DNA of 64,000 nucleotides, from contig JAJZUW010000006.1 of assembly GCA_021845925.1 (NCBI GenBank), forward strand, positions 62,001 through 126,000, given 5' to 3'. Under the pieces are notes generated by a model. That model had not been told where the DNA came from and did not search any database. It was given only the letters and a program-made list of their open reading frames with translations. Of the stretch, positions 8,187-57,172 are shown in pieces; within the stretch, counting starts at the first letter, position 1; each line of letters opens with the position of its first letter. This stretch comes from Pseudomonadota bacterium (GTDB lineage Bacteria > Pseudomonadota > Gammaproteobacteria > Burkholderiales > Sulfuriferulaceae). The position numbers were made by a program, and so were the translations under genes.

Positions 8187-9644
8187 TTGACAGCCGATAG
8201 ATTGCATTTCACATCTTCCGCCCGCTCATTTCTGAGCCGGGCGGTTTTTTTTGCCTGGCTGATCTGGCTGGTGGGCAGCGTCAACAGCTCTATCACACCG
8301 TTGATGGCCTATGATGAACAGCGGTTAGGTGAATTTATCGTGCTGGCCATGACACTACTGCTGCCTGCTGCAGGCCCACGCATCCCCGTGATTATCCATC
8401 GGACATTAATTATATTGATTGGCCTGGGGCTATTGTCCAGCCTACTATCCACACATATACGGCCGGCTGTGGCTGAATGGAGCCTGCTGGCTGCCTGCTT
8501 GCTGAGCGCGCCAGCATTGGCTGGGCATCTGGAACGTTGCGGCTTGCGTTGGCGTTTCTGGATCTTCGCCGCAGTTATCATCACCTGTATCGCGTATCTG
8601 GTTGGCGCCATGGCGTCCTGGCTGGCCGGACTGCTAGCACATGCCAGCTGGCAACCCGCTTTGATGCTGCATCATTTCGACAACCCACGGTTTTTTGCCC
8701 AGTGGGCTTTGTTGGTGCTGCCTCTGTTGTACTGCTTGGAACCCACAACAACATTTCGTCGCCGGGGATTATCCCTGTTGCGAGCAGGCCTGCTGATGCT
8801 AATGCTGGCCAGTGGGTCACGCGGGGCATTGCTGGCACTGTTGCTAGCCGCTGGATGGTTGCTGGTCATACTCACTCGTCGCACAGCACTGCCAGCCGCC
8901 TCTGCTACCCCAGCTGCCATCCTTGTTAAACAACTTTCCCGTCGGTTTGTTACCGATGCCATTCTCGGCATGTTATTGTATATTTTTTTGTTTTATATTG
9001 CGCCGTGGTTGACCACAGCCGGAAATCCTGCTCAAGGATCAGCTTCATTGCTGCGCAATAGCACCAGTGGCCGCTTGCTGTTGTGGCATCACGCTTGGCT
9101 GATGATCGCGCAACATCCTTGGCTGGGCAGCGGGCCGGGTAGTTTTGCCGGTTGGACAAACCCTTTTGGTGCACACCCGCATGATTTTATTTTACAGATT
9201 GCCGCCGAATGGGGCTTACCCGCCTGCTTCGCCTTTATGTCATTCCTGGGAATCTCTCTTTATCATTGGTTAACCAAACTGCGTTATACACAGCCTGAAT
9301 CCATCCTGCTGGCCTGGAGCTTGCTGGCTGGCCTGTTGCTGGGGTTAGTAGACGGCATGCTGGTAACCCCCGTTAGCCAAACTATGCTGGTGTTAGTTAC
9401 CGCCTGGGCACTGGCAAGTCATTCCGCAAACAAACCACAATCTCCGACCCACCAATCCAGCCCGCAGTCTCAGTTATGGTTATTGCATCCGGCCTCACGC
9501 GTGCTATTAGTTTGCGTGCTGATCGCCAGCAATGCACCCGGATTGTTTTACACCTGGCAGAGCGAAACCTCCAGTCATGCCAAACGCCCAGTGATGGAAC
9601 ACCCCAGAATTTGGACTGACGGAACGTCAGTGCACCTCAACTAA
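8187..9644 (+). CDS. Wzy_C-family O-antigen ligase / PglL-type pilin oligosaccharyltransferase
   Basis: Polytopic membrane protein of the O-antigen ligase/polymerase superfamily, with about ten to twelve hydrophobic segments. The periplasmic-loop signatures of Wzy_C proteins are present: SGRLLLWHHAWLMIAQHP, LGSGPGSFAGW and, a little further on, HPHDFILQIAAEWGLPA. Position directly after a pilin gene matches the arrangement of pilin glycosyl-ligases (PilO/TfpO, PglL), so transfer of a glycan to the pilin is the likely role; this is inference. The start is uncertain. The frame is open from 8127 and TTG codons at 8187 and 8202 follow the pilin stop, while the first internal ATG (8304) would lose a membrane helix. 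No convincing ribosome site is seen for any of them, and the pilin terminator overlaps the first codons. The segment is somewhat less GC-rich than its surroundings. Confidence 0.78.
   Translation: MTADRLHFTSSARSFLSRAVFFAWLIWLVGSVNSSITPLMAYDEQRLGEFIVLAMTLLLPAAGPRIPVIIHRTLIILIGLGLLSSLLSTHIRPAVAEWSLLAACLLSAPALAGHLERCGLRWRFWIFAAVIITCIAYLVGAMASWLAGLLAHASWQPALMLHHFDNPRFFAQWALLVLPLLYCLEPTTTFRRRGLSLLRAGLLMLMLASGSRGALLALLLAAGWLLVILTRRTALPAASATPAAILVKQLSRRFVTDAILGMLLYIFLFYIAPWLTTAGNPAQGSASLLRNSTSGRLLLWHHAWLMIAQHPWLGSGPGSFAGWTNPFGAHPHDFILQIAAEWGLPACFAFMSFLGISLYHWLTKLRYTQPESILLAWSLLAGLLLGLVDGMLVTPVSQTMLVLVTAWALASHSANKPQSPTHQSSPQSQLWLLHPASRVLLVCVLIASNAPGLFYTWQSETSSHAKRPVMEHPRIWTDGTSVHLN
8218..8252 (+). 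terminator. Rho-independent terminator after the pilin gene
   Basis: CCGCCCG-CTCA (8218-8228) pairs with TGAG-CCGGGCGG (8233-8244) around the loop TTTC with a single bulged G, and is followed by eight T residues (8245-8252). This is a textbook intrinsic terminator 37 bases after the pilin stop. It lies inside the open reading frame of the downstream ligase, so either the ligase starts further in or the terminator attenuates a pilin-ligase transcript. Confidence 0.88.
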
Positions 9645-10155
9645 CCTGCTGCATTGGCCAATGAACGCGTTGCTCCTTGCTCAGAAACAAGCCTATCAAT
9701 CGGATAGGCTCAGATCCTGCGCGCGGCGCACTTTGCTCTTGTTCGACACGAGACGGTTTTCGAGATGACTATCTCTCAATGGCGGCAACAAGGTGTTGAT
9801 ACTTCCTGAATCCATATTTTTCATGGCTCAAAATTCTTGATAACATGTACAACGCGAAACTCAACTCAAAAACCTAAGCCGATCACCAAATTGAATTATA
9901 GCCTGTTCGATATTAATCAAAATGGCAAATTGGACCTGGCCTCCGGTTCATGGCTGGCACTGATTGGCCAGTGTTGCCAGGCGGACACCATGGTGGATCT
10001 GAAATTAACTGTATCCCATGGCAAACGCACTTTGGATATCGTCCAATCCATAGACTGAATCGATACAGCGCTGCGTTTCAGGAACTGATGGATCGCGATC
10101 TCCACGACCCGACAATCACCATAATCGTCAGAACCAACCAGTGAGATTGCCCACC
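9645..10155 (+). other. Gene-poor stretch with a short, doubtful reading frame
   Basis: About 510 bases without a convincing gene. A 73-codon frame at 9837-10058 (containing FDINQNGKLD) has no clear ribosome site. The reading appears to continue in other frames up to 10140 (ending DPTITIIVRTNQ), so it may be a decayed gene fragment. Two weak palindromic patches near 9700 do not form a terminator. No RNA gene or repeat is recognised. The promoter for the downstream glycosyltransferase is presumably here but not obvious. Confidence 0.4.
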
Positions 10156-11934
10156 ATGAACCCCGTGACATCCCGCATCGTAGCCATTACCGGCTGGCTG
10201 ATTGTTGCCGGCAGCGTCATTGCCACTTACTGGCCGACGCTGCATTTCGCCTGGATATGGGATGACATGCAAACGGTGGGAAGGTATCCGCAATACTCCC
10301 ATCTGGACTGGTGGCATCTGCTGGGTTCTTCATTGCCATTTTCGAAGGATTACTACCGCCCCCTGGTTGTTCTGTCGTTTCTGGTGGAAAACAGCATCAG
10401 TCAGCAGCCCGGACTGGGCCATGCCATCAATATTGCCATTCAGGCCATGAATGCCATCCTGGTGGGCCTGCTTGCGGCCAGTTTCTGGCAAGGCAGGCAG
10501 ATGAACCGGCTTGCCATGCTGGCCGCTGCTTTGCTGTATGGACTGCACCCCGCACTGGTCGAGGGCGTGGCCTGGGTATCGGGCCGGTTCGATCTTCTGT
10601 TCACCCTGTTCATCCTGCTGGGTTTGCTGGCCGACACCAAACTGACACCCGGATTGCGCAGAACCATCACCGTATCCCTGTTGTTCATGGCAGCGCTGCT
10701 CAGCAAGGAAACAGCGGTCGTTTTTCCGCTACTGCTGATTCTGTGGCGGGCTGGCCGCGGAATACGTCCATTTTCTGCCGGAAACAGGGCTGAATTCATC
10801 GGAATCGCATTGGTCATCGCTGCCGATCTGGCCATTCGCTATGCTTTGTTTGGCTTTCTGTTTGTCCGGGACACCGGCATTGACGACATTCCGCTCGGCT
10901 CACCATTACAGCGCTGGCTGCTGCCCGGCGGTGCTTTTTATGGCTATGTCAAGCTGACGCTTCTGCCATTTGGCACGGCCGGCACCCTGCACTGGGTGGA
11001 TCTGCCGTATGCGGTCAACAACTGGAAGGCCTGGGCTGGCTGGCTATTGCTGCTAGGTGGTAGCGCACTGGCTTTCGTGTTGACCCGGCGACGCTCGATC
11101 ACGGTTCGGGCACACGGCTACTTGCTGGCGGCATTCATCATCTGTCTGCTACCCGTCATCCATTTTGTCCTGACGCCATTTCTGATGGGCAATACCCTGT
11201 TTGCTGACCGGCTGCTGCAGTTGCCACTGGTGTTTGCCTGCGTGAGTCTGTATGGCGCAATGACAACATCAGATTTTTCGACGCGCAACCCCTTGCCGAC
11301 CACTGCGCTGATCATCGCTGTTGCAATGATATTCGCTGCCTGGAGCCGGCTGTTGCTGCCTGTCTGGTCGAATGATCTGGTGCTCTGGTCGAATATGGTT
11401 CACGACCATCCGGACTGCAGTTATTGCAAGATGAATCTGGCCATCAGCACGAGTTTTATCGATCCGGACAAATCGATGCAGATGGCCATCCAGTCGCGTG
11501 ACGAAGCGCAGCAATCGTGGCAGCGAATCCAGTCAGACCGGGTTGTTGCATCCAACCTGACCCGACAGAAGCGTTATCAGGAGGCCATCAGCTACATTGA
11601 TGATGCGATCAGGGTATCCCGACACAAGCGCGAAACAGCCTTGCTGTATTGCCAGAAAGCGTCGCTGTATATGGATCTCAACCAGATGGACCTGGCCATT
11701 GACGCCATTCACCGGTCAGCGGTAGCGTACAACCACCTCAGCAAGTATTTTCTGGTGGTCAATCTGCAGCTGGCGATACGCACGCATAGCCAGGTTGCAG
11801 CCTTGCGGTTATACCACATGTTCATGCCCATTCTGACCGACGAGGAACAACTGATCTGGCGCACACGGATGATCAGGGCATTTCCAAAACTGGGACTGGA
11901 CCAGCTGAAAGTCACCGCCGACCAGATACATTAG
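10156..11934 (+). CDS. GT-C fold membrane glycosyltransferase-like protein (TMTC/DUF1736-like) with C-terminal repeats
   Basis: 592-residue polytopic membrane protein. The first luminal loop carries the acidic pair WIWDD (about residues 34-38) and DYYRPL, followed by LYGLHPALVEGVAWVSGRFD and SKETAVVFP. This pattern belongs to TMTC/DUF1736-type GT-C transferases. About ten membrane segments fill residues 10-400. The C-terminal 190 residues are soluble and helical with TPR-like units (YQEAISYIDDAIRVS, QMDLAIDAIHRSA). The position after pilin and ligase suggests a role in pilus glycan transfer or assembly; this is inference. ATG 10156 is preferred over the GTG at 10141. It overlaps the end of tatC by 4 bases in convergent orientation. 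Confidence 0.68.
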   Translation: MNPVTSRIVAITGWLIVAGSVIATYWPTLHFAWIWDDMQTVGRYPQYSHLDWWHLLGSSLPFSKDYYRPLVVLSFLVENSISQQPGLGHAINIAIQAMNAILVGLLAASFWQGRQMNRLAMLAAALLYGLHPALVEGVAWVSGRFDLLFTLFILLGLLADTKLTPGLRRTITVSLLFMAALLSKETAVVFPLLLILWRAGRGIRPFSAGNRAEFIGIALVIAADLAIRYALFGFLFVRDTGIDDIPLGSPLQRWLLPGGAFYGYVKLTLLPFGTAGTLHWVDLPYAVNNWKAWAGWLLLLGGSALAFVLTRRRSITVRAHGYLLAAFIICLLPVIHFVLTPFLMGNTLFADRLLQLPLVFACVSLYGAMTTSDFSTRNPLPTTALIIAVAMIFAAWSRLLLPVWSNDLVLWSNMVHDHPDCSYCKMNLAISTSFIDPDKSMQMAIQSRDEAQQSWQRIQSDRVVASNLTRQKRYQEAISYIDDAIRVSRHKRETALLYCQKASLYMDLNQMDLAIDAIHRSAVAYNHLSKYFLVVNLQLAIRTHSQVAALRLYHMFMPILTDEEQLIWRTRMIRAFPKLGLDQLKVTADQIH

Positions 11935-48576: not shown

Positions 48577-49260
48577 TTATTCGCGCACCTCAAACCGCTC
48601 AAACCGGTCTTCCAGGATGGCTACTCCGCTATTGCGCAGATAACCGGCAGGAACTGCCGGCAGTGAGCAGGCATTACCGGCTGGCCGACAGGCCTGCAAC
48701 ACATAATGCCGCGCGCCCTGGCTCGACAGCCAGTCAGCCATTTCCGTCAGATCAGCCTGATTCAGCAAGGAAGGATGCACCGTGGTGCGAAACTCGCAGG
48801 CCACCCCGCTGGCAAGCAGCATCCGCGCACTGGCTTCGGCTTTGGCCGCACTGCCGGGGATACCGGTCAATGCGTCGTATTTCCGCCAGGGCGCCTTGAT
48901 GTCCAGCCCTACCCAGTCCACCAGCGGCAGCAAGCGACGCAGGCGATCCGGACTGCTGCCGGCAGTGTGCAAGCCAACGAGGAAACCCATGTCGCGCACT
49001 TCCTGTGCCGCCTGCACCACCCCTGCCTGCAGCAGTGGTTCGCCGCCACTGAACACCACGGCATCCAGCAAGCCGCGCCGGCGCGCCAGCGCGTCCCTGA
49101 CTTCCTGCCAGCCCATCTCGGCCGGGAATGCTGCCGACCGCAAATGGGCGTTCTGACAATAGTCACAATTCCACGCGCAGCCGCGACAGAACACCACTGC
49201 AGCCAGCTTGTCCGGATAATCGACGCTGGAACAGGGTACGTAGCCGCCTAAGCGCAGCAT
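48577..49260 (-). CDS. nrdG: Anaerobic ribonucleotide reductase activating protein NrdG
   Basis: Radical SAM enzyme that generates the glycyl radical in class III ribonucleotide reductase. The cluster motif CAWNCDYC (CX3CX2C, about residues 29-36) is followed by FSGGEPLLQ (about residues 70-78) for SAM binding. At 227 aa it is longer than E. coli NrdG (about 154) but matches the pflA-like NrdG type of this lineage. It overlaps the small glycyl-radical gene upstream by 13 bases. Confidence 0.9.
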   Translation of the reverse strand: MLRLGGYVPCSSVDYPDKLAAVVFCRGCAWNCDYCQNAHLRSAAFPAEMGWQEVRDALARRRGLLDAVVFSGGEPLLQAGVVQAAQEVRDMGFLVGLHTAGSSPDRLRRLLPLVDWVGLDIKAPWRKYDALTGIPGSAAKAEASARMLLASGVACEFRTTVHPSLLNQADLTEMADWLSSQGARHYVLQACRPAGNACSLPAVPAGYLRNSGVAILEDRFERFEVRE

Positions 49261-49460
49261 GCTTCTGCCACCACCGGCTCGTGCCCCACCCCTTCTGCCA
49301 CCTCATGAAACAGCTTGCGCTCGGCATGTTCGCTCTGCTTGCCGGCGTTGAACGATGTGACCGGCCGGTGATAGCCCATCACACGCGTCCAGACTTCGCA
49401 ACGCTGGCGTTCATGTTCATCCAGAAGAATCACATTGCTGTTGAAACCAGTCATGTCCAT
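49248..49460 (-). CDS. Separate glycyl-radical C-terminal segment of class III ribonucleotide reductase
   Basis: 70 residues. CEVWTRVMGYHRPVTSFNAG (21-40) followed by KQSEHAERKLF corresponds to the C-terminal glycyl-radical loop of full-length NrdD (E. coli has RVCGYL then FNAGKQEE), so Gly29 is the likely radical site. It has its own ribosome site, AAGGAG at 49469-49474. It is out of frame with nrdD, whose stop lies 43 bases upstream. Similar small proteins exist in related bacteria to my knowledge, so this is probably a real gene and not a sequencing frameshift. It sits between nrdD and nrdG. Confidence 0.8.
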   Translation of the reverse strand: MDMTGFNSNVILLDEHERQRCEVWTRVMGYHRPVTSFNAGKQSEHAERKLFHEVAEGVGHEPVVAEACCA

Positions 49461-49503
49461 GATGCTTGCTCCTTCGTATCAGACCCAAAAAATCAATCCC
49501 TTG

Positions 49504-51528
49504 TCAGGATTGCACCACACGCTGCTTTTTGGCCAGCAGCTCGGCATCACACAATGGGCAGAATTCGTACTCTCCTGCCAGATAACCATGTGTCGGACAG
49601 ATGGAAAATACCGGCGTGACGGTCAGATATGGCAGGGAAAACCGTTCCAGGGAACGTCTGACCAATGTTTTGCACGCCTCGGCCGATGAAATTCGCTCGC
49701 GCATGTACAGATGCAGAACGGTTCCTCCAGTATATTTTCGTTGCAGCGATTCCTGCCTTTCGAGGGCATCAAACGGATCATCGGTAAATCCCACTGGCAA
49801 CTGGGAAGAATTGGTGTAATACGGATGTTCCGGGGTACCGGCCTGCCGGATGCCAGGAAACCGTTTGCGGTCTTCACGGGCAAAGCGGTAGGTTGCACCT
49901 TCCGCCGGCGTGGCTTCCAGGTTGTACATGTGGCCAGTCTCTTCCTGGAATGCCAGCAGCCTGTCACGCACATGGTCCAGCAGACGCAGGGCAAAGTCAT
50001 GCCCCCATGGCGTCGCGATGTTTTCCCGGTCGTCCGTAAAGTTACGGATCAGTTCGTTGATGCCATTGACGCCAAGCGTCGAAAAATGATTCCGGTAACT
50101 GCCCAGGTATCGTTTCGTGTAAGGAAACAGACCGCCGTCCAGATGGCGTTGCAGCTCCTTGCGCTTGATTTCGAGACTGGTTTTTCCCAGTTCCAGCAAT
50201 TCGTCTAGCCGACGCAGCAAGCCAGCCTCGTCATCGCGCCACAGATAACCCAGCCGGGCGCAGTTGATGGTGACCACCCCGATCGATCCGGTCTGTTCCG
50301 CGCTGCCAAACAGCCCGTTGCCCCGTTTGAGCAGTTCGCGCAGATCCAGCTGCAACCGGCAGCACATCGAACGCACCATGTTGGGCTTGAGTTCCGAATT
50401 GATGAAATTCTGGAAGTAAGGCAAACCATATTTGGCTGTCATGGCGAACAACCGGGCGGCATTATCGCTTTCCCAGGGAAAATCCGGCGTGATGTTGTAA
50501 GTCGGAATCGGAAAGGTAAACACGCGGCCTTTCGCATCGCCTTCCGTCATCACTTCGATGTAGGCGCGGTTGATCATGTCCATTTCGAGCTGCAGATCAC
50601 CATAACGGAATGGCATTTCCTCTCCGGCGATGACGGGAACCTGCGCCTTCAGATCGTCCGGACAGGTCCAGTCGAAAGTCAGGTTGGTAAATGGTGTCTG
50701 GGTGCCCCAGCGGGACGGCACATTCAGGTTGTATACCAGCTCCTGGATTGCCTGGCGCACTTCGGCGAACGTGAGCTGATCTTTGCGTATGAACGGTGCC
50801 AGACAGGTATCGAACGAACTGAATGCCTGCGCCCCTGCCCATTCGTTCTGCAGGGTTCCCAGAAAATTGACCATCTGGCCGACTGCGCTGGACAGATGAC
50901 GCGGTGGTCCGGCTTCAACCCGTCCGGGCACGCCGTTCAGCCCCTCGGCCAGGAATGTACGCAACGACCAGCCGGCACAGTAGCCACTCAACATGTCCAG
51001 ATCATGCACGTGCAGGTCGCCATTGCGGTGCGCTTCACCCACTGCCGGCGGATAAACGTGATTCAGCCAGTAATTGGCCACCATTTTGCCGGACACATTG
51101 AGAATCAGCCCACCCAGGCTATAGCCCTGGTTTGCATTGGCATGCACCCGCCAGTCCTGCTGGTCGAGATATTCATTGATCGAACCGGCCACATCGACCA
51201 GTGTTCGTTTGTCCTGACGCAATTTGCGGTGCTGCTCACGATACACGATATAAGCCCGCGCGGTTTGCAGGTGATTGGCGGCAATCAGTGACTGCTCGAC
51301 GACATCCTGGATCTGTTCGATTCCGGGCGATGCCTGGCGATACTTGTAATCCAGCACTTTCAGCACTTCGCCGGTCAGGCGATCCGTTTCGTCGTCGCCA
51401 TATTCGCCGGACGACTGCCCGGCACGTGCAATCGCCGAGCGGATCCTGCCCCCATCGAACATCGTGCGCAATCCATCACGCCTGGTGACTGTCTGCGGCC
51501 CCTGAACTGCTTCAAACAACGCCTGCAT
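49504..51528 (-). CDS. nrdD: Anaerobic ribonucleoside-triphosphate reductase NrdD (lacking the glycyl-radical loop)
   Basis: Catalytic subunit of class III ribonucleotide reductase, 674 aa. It has an N-terminal ATP-cone (about residues 14-105) and the ten-stranded barrel with the active-site cysteine in VRSMCCRLQLDL. The C-terminal zinc-type site is FSICPTHGYLAGEYEFCPLCD. The protein ends right after this, without the usual RVxGY glycyl-radical segment, which is on the small gene downstream. ATG 51528 has AAAGGAGA upstream. A NrdR box lies about 70 bases before the start. Confidence 0.93.
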   Translation of the reverse strand: MQALFEAVQGPQTVTRRDGLRTMFDGGRIRSAIARAGQSSGEYGDDETDRLTGEVLKVLDYKYRQASPGIEQIQDVVEQSLIAANHLQTARAYIVYREQHRKLRQDKRTLVDVAGSINEYLDQQDWRVHANANQGYSLGGLILNVSGKMVANYWLNHVYPPAVGEAHRNGDLHVHDLDMLSGYCAGWSLRTFLAEGLNGVPGRVEAGPPRHLSSAVGQMVNFLGTLQNEWAGAQAFSSFDTCLAPFIRKDQLTFAEVRQAIQELVYNLNVPSRWGTQTPFTNLTFDWTCPDDLKAQVPVIAGEEMPFRYGDLQLEMDMINRAYIEVMTEGDAKGRVFTFPIPTYNITPDFPWESDNAARLFAMTAKYGLPYFQNFINSELKPNMVRSMCCRLQLDLRELLKRGNGLFGSAEQTGSIGVVTINCARLGYLWRDDEAGLLRRLDELLELGKTSLEIKRKELQRHLDGGLFPYTKRYLGSYRNHFSTLGVNGINELIRNFTDDRENIATPWGHDFALRLLDHVRDRLLAFQEETGHMYNLEATPAEGATYRFAREDRKRFPGIRQAGTPEHPYYTNSSQLPVGFTDDPFDALERQESLQRKYTGGTVLHLYMRERISSAEACKTLVRRSLERFSLPYLTVTPVFSICPTHGYLAGEYEFCPLCDAELLAKKQRVVQS

Positions 51529-51597
51529 GTCCTGTCTCCTTTCGATTTTCTGTCACGATTGCCCGCGTCAAACGAATCTGGCGCAAAACCACATCAA

Positions 51598-51611
51598 ACT
51601 AGATATTGTGG
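51598..51611 (-). promoter_or_regulatory. NrdR box upstream of nrdD
   Basis: On the minus strand CCACAATATCTAGT matches the NrdR consensus ACACWATATMTWGT at 13 of 14 positions. NrdR is the ATP/dATP-sensing repressor of ribonucleotide reductase genes and usually binds two such boxes. A second, weak candidate (8 of 14) overlaps 51621-51634 at an unusual spacing. The surrounding gap (51529-51741) is strikingly AT-rich and also serves pdxS. Confidence 0.65.
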
Positions 51612-51741
51612 AACTTATTCGTTCAATATACTCCATCTTGTAGTGGCGTCAATAGTATTTACGGATATTTTTATCATTTGTTCAATAATAAAATAAAAGA
51701 ATCGTGTTATCATCTTTTCCAGCCATAGCGGAGGAACATGC

Positions 51742-52644
51742 ATGACCGAACAAACACCACTGAAACTGAAAACCGGACTGGCCGGCATGCTGCGCGGCGG
51801 CGTCATCATGGACGTGACCGATGCCAGACAGGCTGTGATTGCCGAACAGGCCGGCGCTGTCGCCGTGATGGCGCTGGAACGGGTACCGGCGCAGATCCGG
51901 GCCGAAGGCGGTGTGGCCCGCATGGCCTCGCCCGCCAGAATACGCGAAATCATGGCCGCGGTATCAATCCCCGTGATGGCCAAATGCCGCATCGGTCACT
52001 TTGCCGAAGCCCAGATCCTGCAGGAACTGGGAGTGGATTTCATCGACGAATCCGAAGTGCTGACGCCTGCCGACGAACTGCACCATGTCAACAAGCACGA
52101 TTTTGCCATCCCGTTTGTTTGCGGGGCCCGCAATCTGGGTGAAGCATTGCGCCGGATTGCGGAAGGTGCAGCCATGATCCGCACCAAAGGTGAAGCAGGC
52201 ACCGGGGACATCTTGCATGCCGTTACCCATTTGCGCGCGATTCGCAGCGAAATCCGTCAGTTGACCCTGCTTGACGAAGCCGAACTGTACAACCGCGCCA
52301 AGGAATTGCAGGCACCTTTCGAGCTGGTGCGTCTGGTGGCAGAAACCGGCAACCTGCCGGTGCCCGGTTTTTCTGCCGGGGGCATTGCCACGCCTGCAGA
52401 TGCTGCCATGCTACGCCAGCTGGGCGCGGAAGCGGTGTTCGTCGGATCCGGCATTTTCATGCAGGATGCCTGTCAGCCCTGCCCTGAAGAAGAAGCCTCC
52501 CGTCGCGCACGCGCCATTGTCCGTGCAACCACACACTTCAACGACCCGGCAATCCTGCTGGAAGTGGCGGCTGAATTGACCGGCGCCATCAAGGGGCTGG
52601 CCGCCAGCGTCCTGACCGGACAGTTACAGCATCGTGGCGGATGA
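51742..52644 (+). CDS. pdxS: Pyridoxal 5'-phosphate synthase subunit PdxS
   Basis: TIM-barrel synthase that makes PLP from ribose-5-phosphate, glyceraldehyde-3-phosphate and ammonia. [20 protein letters not shown] at the start carries the family start with catalytic Asp; the first Lys site is in [16 protein letters not shown], and a later phosphate loop is [13 protein letters not shown]. 300 aa, normal. GGAGG at 51730-51734 precedes ATG 51742. It overlaps pdxT by 11 bases. DXP-independent PLP synthesis is less common in Betaproteobacteria, which mostly use PdxA/PdxJ. Confidence 0.96.
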
Positions 52645-53239
52645 TTGTCTGCATATCGGGATTCTGGCGTTGCAGGGCAACGTGATTGCGCACGCCAGCC
52701 ACCTGCAGGCACTGGGTGCCCGTGTGCATGAAATCCGCCGGCCTGGCCAGCTCAACGATCTGGATGGGTTGATCCTGCCCGGAGGCGAATCGACCACCAT
52801 GCTGCACTTTTTGCAGCAGGATGGGTTCTGGGCGGAATTACAGCATTTCGCCAGCCACAAACCCTGTTTTGGCACCTGTGCAGGCGCGATTCTGCTGGCC
52901 CGGGAAGTGCAAAATCCTGCCCAGATCTCGCTCGGCGCGCTGGACATTACCATCGAACGCAATGCCTGGGGTAGCCAGCGTGAGAGCCGGATCCGCTCCA
53001 TTGCGCTGGCAGACGACATTCACACGCTGGAAGCAGTGTATATCCGCGCGCCACGGATCATTCGCACAGGCTCTGCAGTGGAAATCATGGCCATGGACCA
53101 GAACGACCCGATCTGGGTACGACAAGGCCTCAGCATGGCCACCACCTTCCACCCCGAATTGACCGCCGACCTGCAGGTGCATGCCGAGTTCCTGCGCGGC
53201 ATCCGTTCGCAGATGTCCAGCCCGCCGGGGCATCCGTGA
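52634..53239 (+). CDS. pdxT: Pyridoxal 5'-phosphate synthase glutaminase subunit PdxT
   Basis: Class I glutaminase that feeds ammonia to Pdx[21 protein letters not shown] at the start, LPGGESTTM, the nucleophile in [12 protein letters not shown] and the His-Glu pair in [10 protein letters not shown] are complete. 201 aa. GTG start at 52634, overlapping the pdxS stop by 11 bases. It converges on ubiT. Confidence 0.95.
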
Positions 53240-53245
53240 CACGGA

Positions 53246-53629
53246 TCAGCAGCTGGCCAGTACGTTCTTGATCAGCAATGCCGCTTCGGTATTGCCTTCC
53301 ATGACCAGTCGCCGCCGGAAAAACAGCGTATCCGGATCCTCCTCGCGTTGCAGGAGCCGCCAGAAATCACCTGCCGAAGCAGCGATCGTGACATCCGGCG
53401 TGGCAGTCCATCGGCGTGGCCGAAACTGGCCCTGATCCACTGACAGCCAGAACGCCAGCCGGGTATCGCTGACACGGATGCACACCGTCATGCCGGCCAC
53501 CGGTTGCAGACTGCCCATGTCCAGCAGCGGTTTCAGTACCCGATTCAGCACGCCTGCCAGCAACACCGTGTGTGGAGTCGGCGGCAGCCAGGGATGGACA
53601 AGATCAGGTATCGGATTGGCAAGAAACAT
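53246..53629 (-). CDS. ubiT: Anaerobic ubiquinone biosynthesis accessory factor UbiT
   Basis: SCP2-domain lipid carrier needed for oxygen-independent ubiquinone synthesis. 127 aa with the SCP2 core CIRVSDTRLAFWLSVDQG followed by DVTIAASAGDFWRLLQREEDPDTLFF and LVMEGNTEAALLIKNVL, a strong match in pattern to UbiT/YhbT. Last gene of ubiU-ubiV-(lipoate ligase fusion)-ubiT; overlaps the fusion gene by 26 bases. Confidence 0.88.
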   Translation of the reverse strand: MFLANPIPDLVHPWLPPTPHTVLLAGVLNRVLKPLLDMGSLQPVAGMTVCIRVSDTRLAFWLSVDQGQFRPRRWTATPDVTIAASAGDFWRLLQREEDPDTLFFRRRLVMEGNTEAALLIKNVLASC

Positions 53630-55223
53630 GCGGTTGACTCCGGTGGTTGATGGGAACGATGCGGATTACTCGTTGCAATGCATCCAGGTCCAGTTGTGCC
53701 TCGGCGCGAAACTGCCCGGCATAAGCCAGGTTCTCCTGCTGCAATTCGTAGCAGTTGGCGCCACTGATATCCATCAGCACGGCGGACATGCCGGCATTCC
53801 GGAATGCGCGCTGGCGCTTGATGAAAAAGCTGTTGCAACACATCCCCACGTAGGATTCGACGCCGGTGTTGCGCATATCGGTCAGCGTGTGTTCCAGATG
53901 CTCATAGTTCACGATGCTGGTCACCCGCATGTTGCGTTCTCGGGCCAGCCGGTATGCTTCACCCACCGCACACAATCCGCATTCCGGGCAACCATCGCGC
54001 TGACGCCATTTGCACCAGACCGGCTTGGCGCAATACGGCACCAGCATGACTGTTGCCTTGCGCAGGATTTCCTGCCCGCCCTCACCCTCCGGATCAAACA
54101 GCATCAGGGCATTACCCTGGCTGACATCCAGTCCGGTGGTTGCCCGCAAAATGGCCTTGTCAGCCAGGATTGCCAGCAAACGGTGCCAGTCGGTCGCACT
54201 GACACCAGGCATGTCAACCCGATGTTCGGCGCAGAATCCGGCCGTGAGATGAGCGGCTTCGGGCAACGAAACTCCGTTTAGCATCTGTTGCAGACGTTCT
54301 GGCCAGTCCGACGGATCCGCATGCCAGTCACCGGCCAGTGCGCACTGCCCGATCTCTCCATTGGTCAGCATCGCACGCACCCGCAGGGTTGCACCATCAC
54401 ATTTCCACAGTGCTTCCATGCATGAAGCATCGTTGTCCGTGTGCCACAACGGAGCATCCACAGCCAGCATTCCCGTACTGTCCGGCACTGCGACAGGACA
54501 GTCTGCGAGCGCGGATGGATCTTCCATCGGCAGGTCCAGCCAGTCAGCCAGTCCGGCGCATACCGCAGCGCGTACGGTCTGTACCGGCACGTCCTCGCCC
54601 AGGCATTCACGCAGGGTCACCAGGCGGTCGCGAGCGGCAGCCAGGCCATCGCGCGACAGCTTTTCCGTGGGTGCGCGCAGGACTTTGAGCATGGTTTCCA
54701 CATCGGCATCCAGCAACAGCACGCCCTGCAGCAGAACAGAACACCCAGCAGTGGCGACAAAGACCGAACCGGGCTTGCGCCCGTCGATGTCCAGGTCATT
54801 GAAAGCCTTGAATGAGGCCGGCACACCGATTGTGCGCAATCCGGACGCCACGGCACCGGCGAATCCGGCCAGAATCTCCGCCAGCCCGGCACTGGCGCCA
54901 AGCACGCTTCGATCCACAAGCAGGGACCAGCACAGCTGGTCTGGCGACAGATACAACGCTCCGCCACCTGTCACCCGCCTGATCACGGCAATCTGTCTGT
55001 CATGGCAGTAATCCGACCGGATTTCGTGCCGGCAAACCTGGTATCTGCCAATCGATGCGGTCGGCTGATTGCGGTAAAAACGAAGCTGGTCTGCCAGGTC
55101 ACCAGCGGCATGGCTGGCCAGCGCAACCTGATCCAGATACGCATTGTCAGCGCCGCGCATCACTCCGCTGTCCATGATCTGCAACATCGGTGTCGAAGAC
55201 AACCAGCGATTCGCCATCTGCAT
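53604..55223 (-). CDS. Lipoate-protein ligase domain fused to a DUF116 cysteine-rich domain
   Basis: 539 residues. The N-terminal half (about 1-250) is a lipoate-protein ligase A-like domain: DSGVMRGADNAYLDQVALA, RRVTGGGALYLSPDQLCW and AFNDLDIDGRKPGSVF. A middle region (about 250-390) is less conserved. The C-terminal part (about 400-515) matches DUF116: CAKPVWCKWRQRDGCPECG, VNYEHLEHTLTDM, YVGMCCNSFFIKRQRAF and DISGANCYELQ, giving seven or more cysteines that could bind an Fe-S cluster. Start ATG 55223 follows AGGAGG at 5 bases and overlaps the ubiV stop by one base. Its place inside the UbiUVT operon suggests a role in anaerobic metabolism; the substrate is unknown. Confidence 0.8.
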   Translation of the reverse strand: MQMANRWLSSTPMLQIMDSGVMRGADNAYLDQVALASHAAGDLADQLRFYRNQPTASIGRYQVCRHEIRSDYCHDRQIAVIRRVTGGGALYLSPDQLCWSLLVDRSVLGASAGLAEILAGFAGAVASGLRTIGVPASFKAFNDLDIDGRKPGSVFVATAGCSVLLQGVLLLDADVETMLKVLRAPTEKLSRDGLAAARDRLVTLRECLGEDVPVQTVRAAVCAGLADWLDLPMEDPSALADCPVAVPDSTGMLAVDAPLWHTDNDASCMEALWKCDGATLRVRAMLTNGEIGQCALAGDWHADPSDWPERLQQMLNGVSLPEAAHLTAGFCAEHRVDMPGVSATDWHRLLAILADKAILRATTGLDVSQGNALMLFDPEGEGGQEILRKATVMLVPYCAKPVWCKWRQRDGCPECGLCAVGEAYRLARERNMRVTSIVNYEHLEHTLTDMRNTGVESYVGMCCNSFFIKRQRAFRNAGMSAVLMDISGANCYELQQENLAYAGQFRAEAQLDLDALQRVIRIVPINHRSQPHVSCQSDT

Positions 55224-56125
55224 CAAAGTCCTCCTGCCGCCGGCAAGTGCACCATTCCTGGCCTGGCATGCCAGTAACCGTTACAGGTAGGTGACGGCGC
55301 CAGCGCCGCCAGCCTTCGCTCTGCCTCATGAAACGGCATCAGACCATCGCATGCTGCTCGAAACAGCGCCACGATGCTGTCCGTCGCCTGGCTTTGCGGG
55401 CTGATGCGCAAAATGCCCACACCCATCTCCTGCATCGCCGGAAGCGAAGACAACAGACTGACCGTGCGCCAGGATTGGGTCTGAGTGCCATTGAAGATCA
55501 GAAAATCCTCGCCTTCGCGGGTTTGCATGGTCAGTCCGTCCGGATAGTCCAGACAGCTGAACCGGCAATCATCTCGCGGCAGATCATGTGCCCGTGCGGT
55601 CATGCAACGTGCCGAAAACGCCAGTGGCTGACGACCATACGCAAACACTTCTGCTTCCAGACCAGCAGGCGAACCGGCAATCAGCGCGCCAACCAGTTCT
55701 GCCGAGGCCTCCATCACCGCCACCCAGCGTTGTGCGCCGGCTTGCGCCAGGCTGGACAGGGTATGCCGGTTAAACACATTCAGATAAGGACCAGCCACGA
55801 ATCCGGCCTTGCCGGCAAGCAACCCCACTGCCGCCATGTCGTTGGCCTCGATGCGGAACCGGCCATTGTCGATCAGCGTACGCAAGGTTTTCAGTTCGGC
55901 TTCCGATTCGATCAGCACCTGGCTGGACAAAACCACTTCCTTGCCAGTCGCAGCCAGCATATCGGCCGTGTCCAGCCAGTCGGCCAGCCGGAATTCGTGC
56001 CGGCGCGAGCAAACAGTTTCGCCCAGATACACGATATCAACCGGCATGCCAGCGACCGACCGGTAAAAATCACTGATCATCTGACGCGGCCAGTAGTACT
56101 GCAACGGTCCCAGAGCCAGTTTCAT
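55223..56125 (-). CDS. ubiV: Ubiquinone biosynthesis protein UbiV
   Basis: U32-family Fe-S protein that with UbiU hydroxylates ubiquinone precursors without oxygen. MKLALGPLQYYWPRQMISDF opens it. The cluster cysteines are in ETVCSRRHEFR (about residue 39) and ARCMTARAHDLPRDDCRFSC (about 175-195), the pattern of a 4Fe-4S site. I chose ATG 56125 (300 aa), where homology starts. It lies 4 bases after ubiU. Confidence 0.92.
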   Translation of the reverse strand: MKLALGPLQYYWPRQMISDFYRSVAGMPVDIVYLGETVCSRRHEFRLADWLDTADMLAATGKEVVLSSQVLIESEAELKTLRTLIDNGRFRIEANDMAAVGLLAGKAGFVAGPYLNVFNRHTLSSLAQAGAQRWVAVMEASAELVGALIAGSPAGLEAEVFAYGRQPLAFSARCMTARAHDLPRDDCRFSCLDYPDGLTMQTREGEDFLIFNGTQTQSWRTVSLLSSLPAMQEMGVGILRISPQSQATDSIVALFRAACDGLMPFHEAERRLAALAPSPTCNGYWHARPGMVHLPAAGGL

Positions 56126-56129
56126 GCGC

Positions 56130-57125
56130 TTATTTCCATGATCGATGATACGCACCTAGGGTATGCTGCTGTCCCTCAGCCACCTTGTCGAGCTGGTGCA
56201 ACCAGTTTGTCTGCACCGCAAATCCGTCCGGTGCGTCATGCCAGGCATCCAGGGCCTGACGCCACACCCGCGTGACCTGCGCAACATAAGCAGGGCTGCG
56301 CTGGCGTCCTTCGATCTTGATGGCTGTCACACCAGCCCGCGCCAGCTCGGGCAGAATTTTCAGCGTGTTGAGACTGGTCGGTTCTTCGATGGCATAACCG
56401 GTTTCTCCGGCGACTGTAAACCGGCCCTTGCACAAGGTTGGATAGCCCGCATTTTCGTCGTCCGCGTAACAGTCAATCAGCACGCCATTCAAACGTGATT
56501 CCATGCCGCGCGGCGTTTTGCGCCATTGCACCGCACGCGCCGGTGAACAGACACCGGCAGTATTCGGCGAATCACCCGTCACATAGGATGACAGTGCACA
56601 GCGTCCCTCCACCATGACGCAAAGACTGCCAAAACCGAATACTTCGATGTCGACCGGCGCATTCGCACAAACCCGCTCCACCTGAGCCAGCGACAGCACT
56701 CTGGGCAGAACCGCACGCCGGATGCCAAACGTGCGCTGATACCAGGCCAATGCTTCTTCGTTGGTCGCTGAGCCCTGTACGGAAAGATGTCTCGCCAGAT
56801 CCGGGTACCGCTCTGCGGCATAGGCCAGCAAACCTGGATCAGCCAAAATAATGCCATCCACCCCCAGATCAGCCGCGCGGTCGACTGCGACGGTGGCCGT
56901 GTGCCAGGTGTCATCACGCGGATAGGTATTAAGCGCCACCAGCACCTTCACGCCAGCGGCATGGGCATATCGCACACCGTCACGGGCACTGGTCTGATCA
57001 AAATTGAGCCCGCCAAAACTGCGCGCATTGGTGCCGTCCTGGAATCCGACATACACACTGTCCGCGCCATGATCCACGGCAGCCTTGAGTGCCGCGAGTC
57101 CTCCAGCCGGACAGACCAGCTCCAT
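56130..57125 (-). CDS. ubiU: Ubiquinone biosynthesis protein UbiU
   Basis: Partner of UbiV. U32 fold with MELVCPAGGLAALKAAVDHG, SVYVGFQDGTNARSFGGLNF and the U32 signature VFGFGSLCVMVEGRCALSSY (Cys near 169 and 176), then AGVCSPAR and PTLCKGRF providing the remaining two cluster cysteines. I chose ATG 57125 (331 aa). First gene of the operon; a 7-bp AT-rich inverted repeat lies about 50 bases upstream. Confidence 0.93.
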   Translation of the reverse strand: MELVCPAGGLAALKAAVDHGADSVYVGFQDGTNARSFGGLNFDQTSARDGVRYAHAAGVKVLVALNTYPRDDTWHTATVAVDRAADLGVDGIILADPGLLAYAAERYPDLARHLSVQGSATNEEALAWYQRTFGIRRAVLPRVLSLAQVERVCANAPVDIEVFGFGSLCVMVEGRCALSSYVTGDSPNTAGVCSPARAVQWRKTPRGMESRLNGVLIDCYADDENAGYPTLCKGRFTVAGETGYAIEEPTSLNTLKILPELARAGVTAIKIEGRQRSPAYVAQVTRVWRQALDAWHDAPDGFAVQTNWLHQLDKVAEGQQHTLGAYHRSWK

Positions 57126-57172
57126 GCTGCGTCGATCATTGTGGTCACCACGCACGGCAATGCTCCCGCAAG

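Follow-up and report, generated by a model that had tools for sequence, protein, structure and literature searches.

The window, a 64,000-nucleotide stretch of DNA from a member of the Sulfuriferulaceae, encodes between ubiV and ubiT a protein in which a lipoate ligase-like region is joined to a cysteine-rich DUF116 domain. We propose, with our confidence close to evenly balanced, that this fusion is a second, specialized lipoate/octanoate:protein ligase of the sHdr-LbpA branch of sulfur oxidation, deployed without oxygen. On sequence comparisons, its best-supported context appears to be lipoylation in sHdr-LbpA sulfur oxidation rather than ubiquinone chemistry. If so, ubiUVT, nrdDG, and a likely sulfur-oxidation factor would be packed in one anaerobic gene island of sulfur-oxidizing Proteobacteria.

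The ubiU, ubiV, and ubiT genes each score above the cut-offs of their NCBIfam equivalogs (Table 1). The extent and length that the first-pass annotation gave for the fusion gene were reproduced, as was its placement between ubiV and ubiT with overlaps of 1 and 26 bases; the gene lies on the minus strand, which had been omitted, and the plus-strand reading contains stops. In the sequence TGATG, the TGA stop of ubiV and the ATG of the fusion have one base in common, and AGGAGG lies six bases upstream of this ATG. The 26-base overlap holds provided that ubiT starts at the ATG at position 53629. Upstream of ubiU, a search for an FNR box (TTGATNNNNATCAA, at most one mismatch) came up empty; the motif matches four times elsewhere in the window, a number close to that expected by chance. 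Just past ubiT, at 48577-53239, are nrdG and nrdD (anaerobic ribonucleotide reductase) together with pdxS and pdxT, which makes the region a compact cluster of enzymes that are anaerobic or independent of oxygen. An nrdD or nrdG gene is often near the fusion in relatives, too. Neither lipS1/lipT/lipS2 nor shdr genes adjoin the fusion in the window; sLpl and the lip/shdr genes are on another contig of the source genome.

Table 1. Features of the ubiUVT locus and of the fusion gene, in window coordinates
Feature	Position	Strand	Basis or remark
ubiU	56130..57155	-	NF047963, 547.1 bits vs 440
ubiV	55223..56155	-	NF047965, 376.8 bits vs 275
Shine-Dalgarno-like AGGAGG within the 3' end of ubiV	55230..55235	-	Read from the sequence
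LplA-LplB-DUF116 fusion gene	53604..55223	-	ATG start, 539 aa
LplA catalytic domain, residues 25-225	54549..55151	-	Pfam PF21948; RR82-83, G86-88, N142-D143, K150
LplB-like accessory domain, residues 279-345	54189..54389	-	Weak NCBIfam NF053749 match and profile match to 3r07_C
DUF116 domain, residues 386-493	53745..54068	-	Pfam PF01976
ubiT	53246..53629	-	NF047962, 120.8 bits vs 46.9

The arrangement is not a matter of chance, since 20 of 100 related genomes carry the fusion, counting the source genome and one truncated remnant. Identity to the window protein is 41 to 55% in the 18 aligned relatives, and in most of the neighborhoods read, ubiV, the fusion, and ubiT are consecutive on the same strand. 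A scan of genome contigs returned 161 relatives, and 80 of these were kept as named loci. Their sources are Betaproteobacteria, Ectothiorhodospira, Thioalkalivibrio, Acidithiobacillus, several Alphaproteobacteria, and, in a few cases, contigs filed as archaeal. In a sample of the phylum, the fusion is rare (3 of 398 genomes). Judging from these relatives, the fusion is an old, conserved protein. Proteins outside the window were predicted with our own open-reading-frame script rather than taken from annotation; the protein sets exclude three loci with no full-length protein (L194, L204, and L206), and alignment A2 is composed of 50 of the remaining 77 named-locus proteins plus the window protein.

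Genomic settings vary among the named loci, only 65 of which have 1,500 bases on both sides: ubiU/V genes are present at 45 of the 80 (within 300 bp at 39), ubiT only at 2 more, lip/shdr genes within the fetched flanks at 13 (one of them also with ubiUV), and none of these at 21. Away from ubiUV, the fusion often adjoins lipS1, slpl, or LbpA genes. At L167, at L169, and in Thioalkalivibrio, it adjoins lipS1/slpl in divergent orientation, and at L167 the divergent row was labeled lipS1, lipT, lipS2, slpl, lipX, and shdr genes, the LipS2 of this row matching its family model below the NCBIfam cut-off (183.8 of 270 bits); the same is true of LipS1 in the source genome (199.2 of 230 bits). Several rearranged loci were also observed. 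In the single-contig genome G001 (L051, G001:C1:1917000-1936500, positions 9504-11053), a deletion has removed ubiV and the ligase domain, so that ubiU, up to about residue 294, runs directly into the C-terminal half of the fusion; ubiT is kept. A gene for a hemolysin III/TrhA-type membrane protein, matched by Pfam and NCBIfam models at L037 (6465-7154), lies between ubiV and the fusion at L037, L036, and L151. Contig L209 is filed as archaeal, carries ubiUV, and looks like a misfiled bacterial contig.

The joining of the two domains, as first annotated, is borne out by Pfam matches to both LplA-B_cat (E = 2.8e-34, 119.3 bits against a cut-off of 27) and DUF116 (E = 4.4e-07, 29.9 bits against a gathering cut-off of 25), and both domains are present in 51 of 51 members scanned, each at E = 0.01 or better. 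The match to LplB is weak in NCBIfam (E = 0.008), and the accessory domain matches the profile of 3r07_C with an E value of 7e-10. The catalytic domain matches the profile of the LplA structure 1vqz with an E value of 1.6e-35, and its VIA Z score is about 30. An AlphaFold2 model of the fusion (mean pLDDT 90.4, pTM 0.89) was compared with solved lipoate ligases, to which residues 12-355 align with VIA Z scores of about 25 to 31. With the NCBIfam lipoate ligase model, the fusion scores 107.6 bits, under the 280-bit cut-off. LipB enzymes have a conserved cysteine as part of their motif. A LipB-like octanoyltransferase reading, suggested by the fold (2qhs, TMt 0.85), was dropped, as the conserved cysteine is absent from the region read.

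Eight DUF116 cysteines (C398, C404, C412, C415, C418, C462, C463, and C491) are kept in 50 or 51 of the 51 members, C462 being replaced in the three proteins of family f171. These cysteines suggest that DUF116 binds an Fe-S cluster, and the first-pass proposal that it does so thus gains support as probable. Foldseek and VIA searches returned no confident PDB fold for the domain. The candidates set aside, all below the warning level of the tool, were precorrin-8X methylmutase (best Foldseek E = 0.005), a designed Rossmann protein (best VIA Z = 7.7), and the N-terminal part of methanogen HdrA (Z = 4.7 to 5.5).

Across the 100 related genomes, presence of the fusion follows the logical AND of UbiU and sHdr/sLpl, the latter scored from LbpA or from a plain ligase of the sLpl type (about 350 amino acids) rather than from every shdr gene. 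All 20 genomes with both have the fusion, and none of the others do: 18 have only UbiU, 12 only sHdr/sLpl, and 50 neither. Two of the 20 were assigned on the strength of contig-end fragments (in G003 a fragment of UbiU, and in G006 LbpA genes that end where sLpl would come); when these are not credited, the counts become 18/18 with both, 1/13 with sHdr/sLpl only (G003), and 1/19 with UbiU only (G006). A partial ligase match in G026 (60 bits) was left out of the sLpl count. The 18 of 38 UbiU-bearing relatives that lack the fusion are exactly those without an sHdr/sLpl locus, and among sHdr-bearing members of the same genus, the fusion is present in 10 of 10 genomes with UbiU versus 0 of 7 without. 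A similar contrast appears in the class sample, in which 33 of 369 genomes were tested for UbiU: among sLpl-bearing genomes except G000, the fusion is found in 9 of 11 with UbiU and 0 of 16 without (Fisher P = 1.2e-5 with kinship ignored, a value that is too small because the tallied genomes are kin). Of 43 fusion genomes, 22 have an NrdD that scores above its cut-off, versus 0 of 37 non-fusion genomes bearing the ligase and LbpA, one of which has a sub-cut-off fragment. Finally, 47 fusion genomes from the 80 named loci, chosen with the aim of representing all contexts, were put through whole-genome tests; LipS1 is present in 41, LbpA in 40, and at least one of the two in 42. At least two of the 47 duplicate class-sample genomes (identical matches, G506/G365 and G508/G254). 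Together with the loci bearing lip/shdr genes, these distributions argue for a ligase of the sulfur-oxidation branch.

The first-pass annotation had placed the fusion inside the anaerobic ubiquinone operon and had asked how often the two co-occur. Independence from ubiUVT in most genomes, which it had named as a refutation, is not what we found: UbiU is present in 12 of 12 fusion genomes of the class sample, in 19 of 20 related ones (20 of 20 with one contig-end fragment), and in 38 of the 47 named ones. These counts could be explained if the fusion took a direct part in the oxygen-independent pathway, either by acylating or maturing UbiU, UbiV, or UbiT or by supplying Fe-S clusters to UbiUV. 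Such a role would also account for the frequent placement beside ubiUV and for the loss of the fusion, within one genus, whenever UbiU is lost while sHdr remains. It would suit f171 (G220, G431, and G335) as well, where the fusion and UbiU are present with no LipS1 or sLpl match and no clear LbpA; there the fusion is located elsewhere, adjoining a gene taken by eye for mgtE. Nevertheless, we consider a direct role in ubiquinone synthesis unlikely. The 18 UbiU-bearing relatives without the fusion argue against it, as do its frequent position beside lipS1, slpl, or LbpA and the 7 of the 47 named genomes that have LipS1 or LbpA without UbiU. Of the other 40, 35 have UbiU with LipS1 or LbpA, 3 have UbiU alone, and 2 have none of these. 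Moreover, of the DUF116-ligases whose operon partners are known, the closest occupies the slpl slot of a lipoyl-assembly operon (see below), and the E. coli pathway account, in its available text, names only ubiT, ubiU, and ubiV (PMC6747719). Membership of the fusion in anaerobic ubiquinone synthesis per se is not supported.

Other genomes count against the sulfur-oxidation ligase that we favor. Besides f171, these are G134, in which UbiU, LbpA, LipS1, and sLpl are all present and the fusion is absent; G383 (72% complete), with UbiU, sLpl, and LbpA and no fusion; and the Thioalkalivibrio metagenome-assembled genomes. NrdD is found in none of the seven named fusion genomes with LipS1 or LbpA and without UbiU, so a role in anoxia is not demonstrated for those seven. 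That most class II genomes already have a plain sLpl beside the loop-changed ligase also weighs against it, as a second ligase then has no evident use. It is because of f171, G134, and these seven genomes that our confidence stays where we have placed it.

Comparison of active sites and trees divides the fusions into two classes. Ligase residues are kept in nearly all of the 78 fusions compared (R83 in 78, G87 in 78, N142 in 76, D143 in 75, and K150 in 75), as expected for a ligase. The loop after the catalytic lysine reads KISGTGG in plain sLpl, K-[IL]-[AG]-S-x-F in class II, and KPGSVF in the window protein, which thus lacks KISGTGG. We defined the KISGTGG criterion from 36 rows labeled sLpl, 34 of which have G-T-G-G at positions 153-156; two rows, L177_sLpl and L180_sLpl, are copies of fusions that had been mislabeled in an earlier tree. 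Class I (L249, L218, and L219) retains KISGTGG, and the G513 fusion has the sLpl-like loop GRKISGTGG. In a midpoint-rooted tree whose bootstrap had not converged, support is 97/95 for the grouping of the G513, L218, and L219 proteins with sLpl and 100/99 for a single clade of all 34 class II proteins. By this placement, the window protein is a member of the class II clade, with the ligase lysine kept and the substrate loop changed. Unlike the window protein, other members of class II are linked to lip or shdr genes. The operon of G513 reads HdrC-like, HdrB-like, two GcvH-like carriers, LipS1, LplA-DUF116 (548 amino acids), LipT, and LipS2, so that the LplA-DUF116 protein takes the slpl slot in lipS1-x-lipT-lipS2, beside shdr and LbpA. 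LipS1 and both fusion domains of this row were matched by family models, and its other labels come from tblastn with source-genome and L167 genes. DUF116 therefore accompanies ligases of both classes, and those of class I within a lipoyl-assembly operon. Three related observations concern ligase copies. Two contigs from metagenome-assembled genomes classed as archaeal, L218 and L219, carry an sLpl-type ligase-DUF116 fusion that overlaps, on its upstream side, a gene for a class I glutamine amidotransferase (matched by Pfam in L218). G305 has two class II fusions (L223 and L263), one after ubiUV and the other elsewhere, and the genome of L003 (G000:C6:63308-66676) encodes, in addition to sLpl and the fusion, a third LplA-fold ligase, whose 360-aa open frame contains GRKLAGSGAA.

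Because the class II loop differs from that of sLpl, activity on lipoate is not assured. The first-pass annotation offered two options, lipoylation of an anaerobic partner or a ligase fold with another acyl substrate; the former is supported by the data above, and the altered pocket loop keeps the latter alive. A ligase acting on a different acyl group or on a carrier other than LbpA would explain the replaced loop, the monophyly of class II, and the f171 genomes with no clear LbpA. Such a specificity seems improbable to us, to about the same degree as a direct ubiquinone role, given that LbpA or LipS1 accompanies the fusion in most named genomes and that, in the loci read, we sought and did not find a dedicated carrier gene recurring beside the fusion. 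The sulfur-oxidation ligase that we favor is itself weakened in that no carrier paralogue tracks the fusion: LbpX, a third GcvH-like protein, is present in 11 of 20 fusion genomes versus 6 of 12 sHdr-only relatives. LbpX itself (L090 7598-8041; G000:C12:114097-114537) is a GcvH-like carrier with ESGKWAGG, and 18 of the 100 related genomes have it at an identity of at least 63%. Its gene belongs to a conserved row whose other genes were labeled by eye as a Crp/Fnr-like regulator, a small membrane protein, and a thioredoxin-like gene.

We also considered whether the fusion is a sensor or regulator, with acyl-AMP or lipoyl status as the signal for the ligase half and oxygen or sulfane sulfur as that for the Fe-S domain, thereby tuning sulfur oxidation or the anaerobic switch. 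Its presence tracks an anaerobic and sulfur-oxidizing lifestyle, and 3 of the 78 proteins lack K150; in the two of these that were checked, L211 and L213, all eight cysteines are intact. On the other hand, the catalytic lysine is present in the remaining 75, and domain scans of the fusion protein detected no DNA-binding or signaling domain. We judge a sensory function to be less probable than either a ubiquinone role or an altered specificity.

How might a ligase of the sHdr-LbpA branch carrying a DUF116 domain act? In the mechanism that we favor, the N-terminal half would use ATP to activate an acyl group (octanoate, lipoate, or a partly sulfurated octanoyl group), which would then be attached to a lysine of an LbpA-type carrier. 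More tentatively, DUF116 might bind one or two Fe-S clusters and might serve the next step, sulfur insertion by LipS1/LipS2, for example by renewing a cluster spent as sulfur donor. This idea of a helper stems from the G513 row, in which the other lipoyl enzymes are the sulfur-inserting pair and LipT, and from reconstitution in E. coli, which according to the available text of PMC10332631 stopped mostly after one sulfur. Since the second sulfur insertion was inefficient with lipS1-slpl-lipT-lipS2 alone, there is room for a missing helper. Its location in ubiUVT would reflect the fact that cells in one anoxic, sulfur-oxidizing state need both, and the fusion would have no part in making ubiquinone. 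According to the text available for PMC12423496, sulfane-sulfur regulators of sulfur oxidation in Hyphomicrobium also affect denitrification and oxygen-independent ubiquinone genes, which fits a shared regulon. A more elaborate scheme, which we regard as a long shot, would couple lipoyl chemistry to anaerobic ubiquinone synthesis, with the DUF116 ligase charging or rebuilding an LbpA-type carrier that feeds electrons or sulfur-derived reducing power to the UbiUV hydroxylases. If true, this coupling would amount to a lipoate-dependent branch of oxygen-independent ubiquinone synthesis where sHdr and UbiUVT coexist.

We found no published description of the fusion in a search outside of which most subscription papers and bioRxiv preprints lie, and no literature linking "DUF116" with "lipoate"; among the matches listed for DUF116, no title hints at a lipoate enzyme. 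The available text of PMC6747719, PMC11707229, PMC10332631, PMC12423496, and PMC6067878 likewise contains no mention of DUF116 or of such a fusion.

The flanking ubiU, ubiV, and ubiT belong to the UbiUVT pathway, which is described without a lipoate ligase or DUF116 in the available text of PMC6747719 and PMC11707229, and the fusion does not occur throughout UbiUVT genomes as a component of that pathway might. With canonical LplA (E. coli 1x2g, Listeria 8cri, and Thermoplasma acidophilum 3r07), the fusion shares its fold and the RR, GGG, ND, and K residues; it differs in falling under the lipoate ligase cut-off, in the extra DUF116, and in the altered loop. DUF116 is a family without known function, and its fusion to a ligase of the LipS1/LipS2 pathway would give it a concrete, testable place. 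A close known system is sLpl(AB) of the sHdr-LbpA system, which has the same LplA plus LplB architecture in the available text of PMC10332631 and PMC6067878 and whose counterpart in the source genome, in the shdr/lip cluster, is a 30% identical match to the fusion. Relative to sLpl(AB), the window protein adds DUF116, has another loop after the lysine, falls in its own clade, and is located in ubiUVT.
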